Assembly: GCA_002239025.1 (NCBI GenBank)
Contig: MPNM01000027.1
Coordinates: 1 to 39,693, forward strand
Direction of reading: 5' to 3'
DNA: 39,693 bases
DNA from: Chloroflexi bacterium bin125
Lineage (GTDB): Bacteria > Chloroflexota > Dehalococcoidia > Bin125
Shown here: one piece after another, positions 1,434 through 39,588 of the stretch
Layout of the letters: the number at the start of each line of letters is the position of its first letter
Numbering within the stretch: position 1 is the first letter of the stretch
The notes under the pieces: generated by a model
What the model saw: only the letters and a program-made list of their open reading frames with translations
The model's database searches: none
What the model was told of the DNA's origin: nothing
Made by a program: the position numbers and the translations under genes

Positions 1434-1918
1434 TTGTTAGTTCCTCAAGGGCACTGGACGACCATCCTCATCGCAGGGATACGTCATTTCATAATGGGAA
1501 CATCCCTTTTGGGAACGCTCTGAGCAAGGTCATTGATTGGCGGTTACGATCCTAGCAGGCTGCTGACAAAAGGGTATGTGAGATCATGGCGGAGGTGTTG
1601 AGCCGATAGGCGAAAGAGGTCTGCGATGCGCGGCGAGTCAGAACGGCAGGCGACGATGATGTTAGGGCTGACGCTGGAGGGTTTCGTGCCGATGGACCGC
1701 CCGCTGCGCCGGATCAACCCCCTGGCCGACTCGGCCTTGCAACGTATGTCGCCGTTGTTCGACGAGCTCTACGCGGACAACGGATGGCCCTCGATTCCGC
1801 CCGAGCACCTACTCAAGTCGAGCCTGCTGATTGCCTTCTTCACGATCCGCTCGGAGCGCCAGTTCTGCGAGCAGCTGCGCTACGACGTCTCATTCAAATG
1901 GTTCCTGGACCTCAATAG

Positions 1919-1944
1919 CCTGCCCCACACCTGATGCGAGGTGG
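1919..1944 (-). repeat. 26-bp dispersed palindromic element, copy 1
   Basis: Reverse-oriented copy of a short palindrome with GC-rich arms and GGGGCAGG at one end. Deleting exactly these 26 bases joins 'DLN' to 'REQPFHLTTFTKNRERL' and repairs the transposase frame, so it is a discrete insertion. It is the most diverged copy in its arms. Confidence 0.7.
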
Positions 1945-2185
1945 AGAACAACCCTTCCACCTGACGACCTTCACGAAGAACCGTGAACGGCTCATGGCGG
2001 CGGACGCGGCGCAGGTGCTGCTCAAGGAAGTCGTGCGCGAGGCGCGCCGACGCCAGCTGCTCTCGGCTGATCACTTCACCGTCGACGGCACGCTGCTTGA
2101 CGCCTATGCCTCGCACAAGAGTTACCGACCGCGCGTCGAGCGACCGACGGATGATGGTCGGCGCGGCCGGCGCAACTGGCCCCGC

Positions 2186-2211
2186 GACCCCCGGTCAAGC
2201 CGGGGGCAGGC
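2186..2211 (+). repeat. 26-bp dispersed palindromic element, copy 2
   Basis: Reads GACCCCCGGTCAAGCCGGGG followed by GCAGGC. It has the same arms and core as the other copies. The surrounding transposase frame stays open across it, adding Pro/Arg/Ser/Gly-rich residues between 'RRNW' and 'FKGERRRRETHAS'. Confidence 0.7.
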
Positions 2212-2376
2212 CTTCAAAGGCGAGCGCCGCCGCCGCGAGACGCACGCCTCGTCCACCGACCCGGAGGCGCGGCTCTACCGCAAGGGCAAGCAGCAAGGCG
2301 CACAGCTCTGCTATCTCGGCCATGTGCTCAGCGAAACCGGAACGGCCTGGTGGTCGATGTCGATCTGACCGAGGCA

Positions 2377-2402
2377 GACCCCTGGGCCAGCCAGGGGCAG
2401 GT
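2377..2402 (+). repeat. 26-bp dispersed palindromic element, copy 3
   Basis: Reads GACCCCTGGGCCAGCCAGGG followed by GCAGGT. Removing these 26 bases joins 'DLTEA' to 'GYAERDADLSMLKRS' in one frame, so here too the unit behaves as a precise insertion that broke the gene. Confidence 0.7.
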
Positions 2403-2449
2403 GGCTACGCCGAACGGGACGCCGACCTGTCGATGCTCAAACGCAGCAG

Positions 2450-2475
2450 CCTGCCCCGCACTTGATGCGGGGTCA
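2450..2475 (-). repeat. 26-bp dispersed palindromic element, copy 4
   Basis: Reverse-oriented copy with arms CCTGCCCCGC and GCGGGGTC around ACTTGAT, the reverse complement of the ATCAAGT core of the forward copies. It lies between the 'MLKRSS' and 'ANLGAERAYDTRDF' segments of the broken transposase. The exact edges are uncertain by a few bases. Confidence 0.65.
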
Positions 2476-2994
2476 GGGGGTCGGGCCAATCTGGGCGCGG
2501 AGCGAGCCTACGACACGCGCGACTTCGTCGGGGATCTGCGCGAGCTGGGGGTGAGGCCCTCTATCGCTCAGAACGAACAAGGCCCGTGCACCGCGATCGA
2601 CCGGCGCACGACCAGACCTCCGGGCTAGGCGCGGAGTCAGCACCGTCGCAAGATCGCCGAAGAGGTCTTCGGCTCAATCAAGACGGTCGGCGTCGGCGGC
2701 AAGCTGCACTACCTCAGCCGGACACGCTACAAGCTCTGGTTCGAGCTGACCGCCGCCGCTTGCAACCTCACCCGCCTCGCCGACATCGAGGCGGCCGCTG
2801 CGTAGCTGTACGGCGCGGCCGGGCCTCAAGCGTCAGATCCAACACTCGAGATCCTGCCCGTTCACTTACTGGACCTGCGCGCGATCCCTGCTCGGCGTGC
2901 GTCCACTCGTCGGCGATGGCCAGCTTGACACCTGCAATCCGTCGTTCAGCAGCCTGCTAGGGAACCATCCGATCACGCGCAGCGTCTTGTTGGT

Positions 2995-39562: not shown

Positions 39563-39588
39563 AGCCCCTGATCAAGTCAGGGGCAGGC
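39563..39588 (+). repeat. 26-bp dispersed palindromic element, copy 5
   Basis: Reads AGCCCCTGATCAAGTCAGGG followed by GCAGGC, the same family as the four copies inside the broken transposase at 1.9-2.5 kb, 37 kb away. Here it is intergenic, between the hairpin and the ribosome site of the next gene. Confidence 0.7.

Follow-up and report, generated by a model that had tools for sequence, protein, structure and literature searches.

The four short palindromes that interrupt a transposase pseudogene in a 3.68-Mb genome of Dehalococcoidia-type Chloroflexota are probably copies of one non-autonomous mobile DNA hairpin, which carries a CCTG tag, inserts precisely and would be moved by an enzyme acting in trans. 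All four have the tag CCTG, a 7-bp stem and the loop CTTGA (altered in one copy), and all lie in one IS5-family pseudogene in the window, which is contig 17 of the genome and the whole stretch of DNA analysed (39,693 nucleotides). Its relevant features are the following, with ^ marking the insertion junction.

1626..2805, plus strand: IS5-family transposase pseudogene that holds the four copies (DUF772 in Pfam; alignment to intact relatives)
1917..1940, plus strand: site 1, 24-bp unit AGCCTGCCCCACACCTGATGCGAG, target AAT^GTGG, with an in-frame TGA inside
2189..2212, minus strand: site 2, 24-bp unit in reverse orientation (GGCCTGCCCCCGGCTTGACCGGGG), target GAA^GTC
2380..2402, minus strand: site 3, copy of 23 bp, reverse orientation, with CTGGC as its core where the others have CTTGA, target GCC^GTCGG
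2448..2471, plus strand: site 4, 24-bp unit AGCCTGCCCCGCACTTGATGCGGG, target AGC^GTCA
39565..39587, minus strand: fifth copy in the window, near the contig end, 23-bp core CCTGCCCCTGACTTGATCAGGGG

A first-pass annotation of this DNA had described related palindromes in both orientations, and they are present, at 1919, 2188, 2379 and 2450, with 0.00 chance matches expected in the window. The Rfam search of the window matched no known RNA family. Near its start, positions 124-244 and 706-827 form a direct repeat of ~122 bp and high identity, which overlaps the start of a small minus-strand ORF (259-738) with a lipoprotein-like leader and looks like a duplicated gene start.

The four segments are insertions, since other copies of the IS in the same genome and relatives in other species are empty at exactly these points. 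Site 1 is empty in L005, L190, L176, L177 and L179 and filled in L002, L004, L178 and L204; site 2 is empty in L002, L004, L005, L190, L176 and L177 and filled in L003. At site 3 the empty loci are L002, L005, L190, L176 and L177 and the filled ones L003 and L004, and at site 4 they are L002, L190, L176 and L177 (empty) and L003, L004 and, from another species, L041 (filled). Three relatives (L190, L176 and L177) are empty at all four sites in the alignment. L190, from another species, is intact, with 359 aa and a protein match to NF033581 (IS5 family) above the cut-off. L003, an IS copy of the same genome, has a fifth insertion site of its own, and all five IS sites read ^GTC or ^GTG. For the fifth window copy, at the contig end, the search for an element-free homologue found none.

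A 24-bp insert leaves the frame unshifted, and the damage at site 1 is the TGA within the element. Cutting exactly 24 bp at 1917-1940 regains the protein match no further than residue 102, the point at which a separate, unrelated 1-bp deletion begins. At site 2 the protein reading keeps one frame across the insert, and the gene stays open as had been said of the copy placed at 2186. The annotation had given the unit 26 bp and reported that removing 26 bases repairs the gene. The frame is indeed regained in this way at sites 1 and 3, but comparison of empty and filled sites gives an insert of 24 bp, or 23 at site 3. The 26-bp cut works at site 1 because it also compensates the 1-bp deletion, and at site 3 because 26 and the net insert length of 23 bp are equal modulo 3.

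The inserted unit reads AGCCTGCCCC-nnn-CTTGA-nnn-GGG, is 24 bp and sometimes 23 bp long, and is set 5' of a G. From 159 flanked copies the unit AGCCTG...GGG was removed and the joined flanks were searched for an element-free homologue. A homologous stretch spans the junction for 132 of them, with a minority of the best matches of low quality; the net difference is exactly 24 bp in 98 cases and 23 bp in 27. Empty homologues with long flanks were found at 33 sites by a loose automatic rule that lets in some doubtful cases. The empty/filled pairs have no target duplication, and the G found 3' of the junction already belongs to the empty site. Filled and empty sites together thus demonstrate mobility, the length of the unit and the absence of target duplication. 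AG precedes CCTG in 43 of the 60 independent host contexts.

The stem varies in a coordinated way. In 168 copies picked by their left half only, the three variable positions of the stem form Watson-Crick pairs in 165, 163 and 155 cases, respectively. Of 21 distinct arm types, 14 have pairs at both outer positions, where shuffling would give 3.3 (maximum 9). This covariation supports recognition of the element as a folded hairpin. The CCTG tag accompanies 165 of 196 CCCC-stem CTTGA hairpins, where GTAG is not among the four commonest tags, and the CTTGA loop occurs in 207 of 1160 seven-pair, five-loop hairpins of the fetched DNA, a set enriched for the element by the fetching itself. As the tag is confined to one side, the unit is directional. 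Several forms of the element sequence had no match in the literature searched.

Searching the genome for the motif, a check proposed by the annotation, found it abundant. Pattern searches with the strict pattern CCTGCCCCNNNNTTGANNNGGGG counted 87 copies (55 exact and 32 with one mismatch; 0 with the reversed-pattern control). The proposal of tiny mobile palindromes comparable to REP units is supported by these 87 copies together with the empty sites and the stem covariation. A preference for this IS is not established, with 7 of the 87 listed copies in it; the IS itself is multi-copy, decayed and tolerant of inserts.

Genomes of the genus hold 0 to 70 copies, and in an even sample of Chloroflexota the element occurs in 23 of 400 genomes and 8 of 224 genera. 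With one genome taken per species, the exact 23-mer CCTGCCCCGCACTTGATGCGGGG was found in at least 117 stretches. The matches listed include Chloroflexota, Alphaproteobacteria (among them Bradyrhizobium, Rhodoplanes and Rhodospirillales), Deltaproteobacteria, Nitrospirota, Nitrospinota, Bacteroidota and Fibrobacterota, with Fibrobacteria, a complete Sphingobacteriales chromosome and an Aliiglaciecola isolate also among them. Copies were counted in 31 of these carrier genomes and number 1 to 81 in each. Contamination of bins does not explain the spread across phyla, because several carriers are isolates (e.g., Bradyrhizobium erythrophlei and Aliiglaciecola). The patchy colonisation of several phyla points to horizontal spread followed by local amplification. 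Carriage by viruses was considered and rejected, a 25-mer being found on only 1 viral contig.

Sixty different host contexts were counted. The host sites include intrastrand-triplex repeats (CCCTCTCCC..GGGAGAGGGTTAG^GGTGAGGG), CGTC-type REPs, Bradyrhizobium repeats (two of them with the junction AA^GTGG) and a related hairpin; a related host repeat reads GGGGGAGATGCCGAA^GGCAGAGGGGG. In the carrier genome G065 an insertion lies in the loop of a CGTC-type REP. The related hairpin family, GATGCCCC-GTG-CTTGA-CAC-GGGGCCCAGA, is a target in its own CTT^GA loop (L043, L071, L101, L165 and others). At the junction an MFE hairpin loop is predicted in 37% of cases and in 27% of shuffles, and targeting of loops only was rejected on this weak excess.

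Some copies within one host repeat have probably spread with that host instead of by separate insertions, and independent events are for this reason fewer than copies. In G065 a dispersed repeat of ~270 bp (L108, L129; loci such as L063, L117 and L131) is filled in 16 fetched copies and empty in 2, which suggests that the filled repeat itself has spread. The same genome has head-to-tail tandem hairpins at exactly 23-bp spacing (L220 1479-1524, L221 1560-1605, L222 1294-1339 and L225 1521-1566), possibly formed by insertion beside an existing copy or by slippage. Neighbouring elements 1.5-60 kb apart have the same orientation in 14 cases and the opposite in 11 in the genome G000, and in 13 and 14 cases in G014. 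A lagging-strand bias was rejected on this lack of a regional orientation bias, and GC skew in 8-kb loci gives a weak tilt (39/116) confounded by gene orientation and repeated loci.

It is unlikely, though worth weighing, that the hairpins are relics, once mobile through an enzyme since lost, and that today's copies are propagated solely along with host repeats and IS copies and by gene conversion. The patchy distribution, the lack of a dedicated gene and the many copies at the same host junction agree with such a history, and lost enzymes have been proposed for CGTC REPs (Di Nocera et al., PMC3733652). Set against this, exact 23-mers are undecayed, several arm variants occur at one host position and copy number ranges from 0 to 70 within the genus, all of which suggest recent activity.

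The REPtron/REPIN model, in which ordinary REPs are moved by a REP-associated tyrosine (Y1) transposase of the same genome, is an improbable account here. The size, the single-stranded tag next to a hairpin and the constraints on the loop do resemble those of TnpA-REP substrates (PMC8266576). The search for a REP-type transposase, also suggested by the annotation, succeeded once in this genome, where the only Y1 gene (L039 1396-2079, minus strand) encodes a protein of 227 aa that matches NF047646 at 59 bits, under the cut-off of 80. In the other 14 genomes of the genus neither the profile search nor the protein search found one, although one of these genomes has 70 copies and four have 17-20; 14 of 15 genus genomes are thus without Y1. 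Y1 genes are present in 15 of 29 other carriers and missing from 14. The 3.2-kb locus around the resident Y1 gene has no pattern-matching CCTG copy. Furthermore, the tag is CCTG in place of GTAG, and one hairpin instead of a doublet forms the mobile unit. RAYT was accordingly rejected as a required mover for most genus carriers and for the 14 of 29 others, from which the family is missing.

Two further candidates were rejected. G000 and G014, the two genomes of the genus richest in the element, have no reverse transcriptase. An autonomous copy flanked by hairpins was sought between close hairpin pairs in three G065 regions; the enclosed genes (ClpP-, trigger-factor- and PurM-like, and others) look housekeeping and include no transposase. 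Close pairs occur in G014 as well. The Y1, reverse-transcriptase and partner-gene searches together found no dedicated moving enzyme for the CCTG hairpin.

A selected protein-binding site or transcription terminator that arises repeatedly, with identity across phyla due to convergence, is a very improbable account: GC-rich hairpins can act in RNA and stem covariation fits any structure-based function, but both the CCTG tag and the CTTGA loop persist where the element lies in an IS pseudogene or in another repeat, and the empty sites with a net 24 bp show arrival of the whole unit and not stepwise evolution, of which no intermediates were seen. Normal transposase coding sequence or local slippage, for which the open frame at site 2 might speak, can be dismissed: on alignment with the transposase relatives, a comparison the annotation had also called for, the segments are missing at precisely these positions from intact and decayed relatives alike, and the same sequence occurs in unrelated loci and phyla.

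For the mobile hairpin, the preferred reading, the following course can be proposed. The 24-bp unit comprises a 5'-AG, the unpaired CCTG tag, the 7-bp stem, the loop CTTGA and three Gs; the stem combines an invariant CCCC/GGGG with three covarying pairs, and the three terminal Gs are completed by the G already in the target. Insertion 5' of a G without target duplication is seen directly in the empty sites. The form recognised would be the folded hairpin, because the tag and loop are strand-asymmetric and the stem is kept by compensatory changes. The target may be transiently unpaired DNA, because most host sites are repeats able to fold (intrastrand-triplex motifs and other palindromes). The mover would act in trans, and in the genus carriers richest in copies it is, by the searches above, neither a resident REP-type Y1 enzyme nor a reverse transcriptase. 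An HUH-type hairpin-processing enzyme acting in trans would be the likeliest mover, on the analogy of TnpA-REP (PMC8266576). It may be that such a nuclease/strand-transferase is brought in transiently, or that the enzyme is one not yet recognised, and we hold this with somewhat less than even confidence. More tentatively, the single 24-bp hairpin could be the complete substrate of a phylum-spanning system that can do without the known REP transposase and that also moved CGTC-type REPs.

Several known systems resemble the element in part. Rickettsia palindromic elements, with which the annotation had compared it, are also palindromes inside genes, but they sit in frame in likely functional proteins, whereas here the host is a pseudogene and site 1 adds a stop. 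The likeness is not close: the unit is 24 bp long, may contain a stop codon in frame and here is not retained as coding sequence. MITEs have terminal inverted repeats of 15-30 bp and a target duplication, whereas the whole element is 24 bp and makes none. Small dispersed repeats of cyanobacteria, the subject of work by Elhai et al. in 2008, are reportedly mobile and ~21-27 nt long; comparisons reportedly reveal their insertions, and an enzyme that moves them is not known. By this description they are the closest behavioural match, in a different lineage. Intrastrand triplex repeats of bacteria are the target of many insertions and not the element; the host sequence CCCTCTCCC...GGGAGAGGGTTAGGGTGAGGG matches Table 1 of their description (PMC4666352).

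Most REPs were sorted into GTAG- and CGTC-tagged families, the latter without a dedicated transposase (Di Nocera et al., 2013; PMC3733652). GTAG REPs and REPINs with RAYT (TnpA-REP) are likewise tagged hairpins, non-autonomous and similar in size, that presumably move in folded, single-stranded form. Unlike them, the element has no GTAG tag and is a single unit with precise 24-bp empty sites in place of doublets, and about half or more of the tested CCTG carriers have no resident Y1 transposase. CGTC REPs share with it the small hairpin, a four-base tag, a 5-nt loop within the 4-5 nt of their definition, alternative paired stem residues, occurrence in many phyla and the lack of a known transposase. 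They are defined by a CGTC (or TGTC/CCTC) tag, a stem of 8-9 bp beginning AT and a CCA tail (PMC3733652), whereas the element has the tag CCTG, a 7-bp stem beginning CCCC and variable sequence after the stem, with no CCA tail. An 11-base core, nnnCTTGAnnn, is common to the CCTG element and the CGTC-like repeats of carrier genomes. In G065 and G086 the two coexist with the same inner arms and loop (GTA-CTTGA-TAC and GCA-CTTGA-TGC), and the window's genus has 0-1 CGTC-like copies versus up to 70 CCTG copies.

The element behaves like a REP but is outside both described tag classes, GTAG and CGTC; both tags and the CCA tail are missing and the stem is shorter, so it is not filed under either. We read the CCTG-tagged hairpin as what looks like a sister family of the CGTC-type REPs. 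What is new is, in our best judgement, a CCTG-tagged variant of REP-like mobile hairpins whose single-unit mobility is evident from empty sites; it would rank with the smallest DNA units that have been shown to move. The spread of REP-like palindromes is unsettled; the base-level definition given here of the mobile unit, its ends, its junction rule and many empty sites makes an enzyme search and a transposition assay directly testable.
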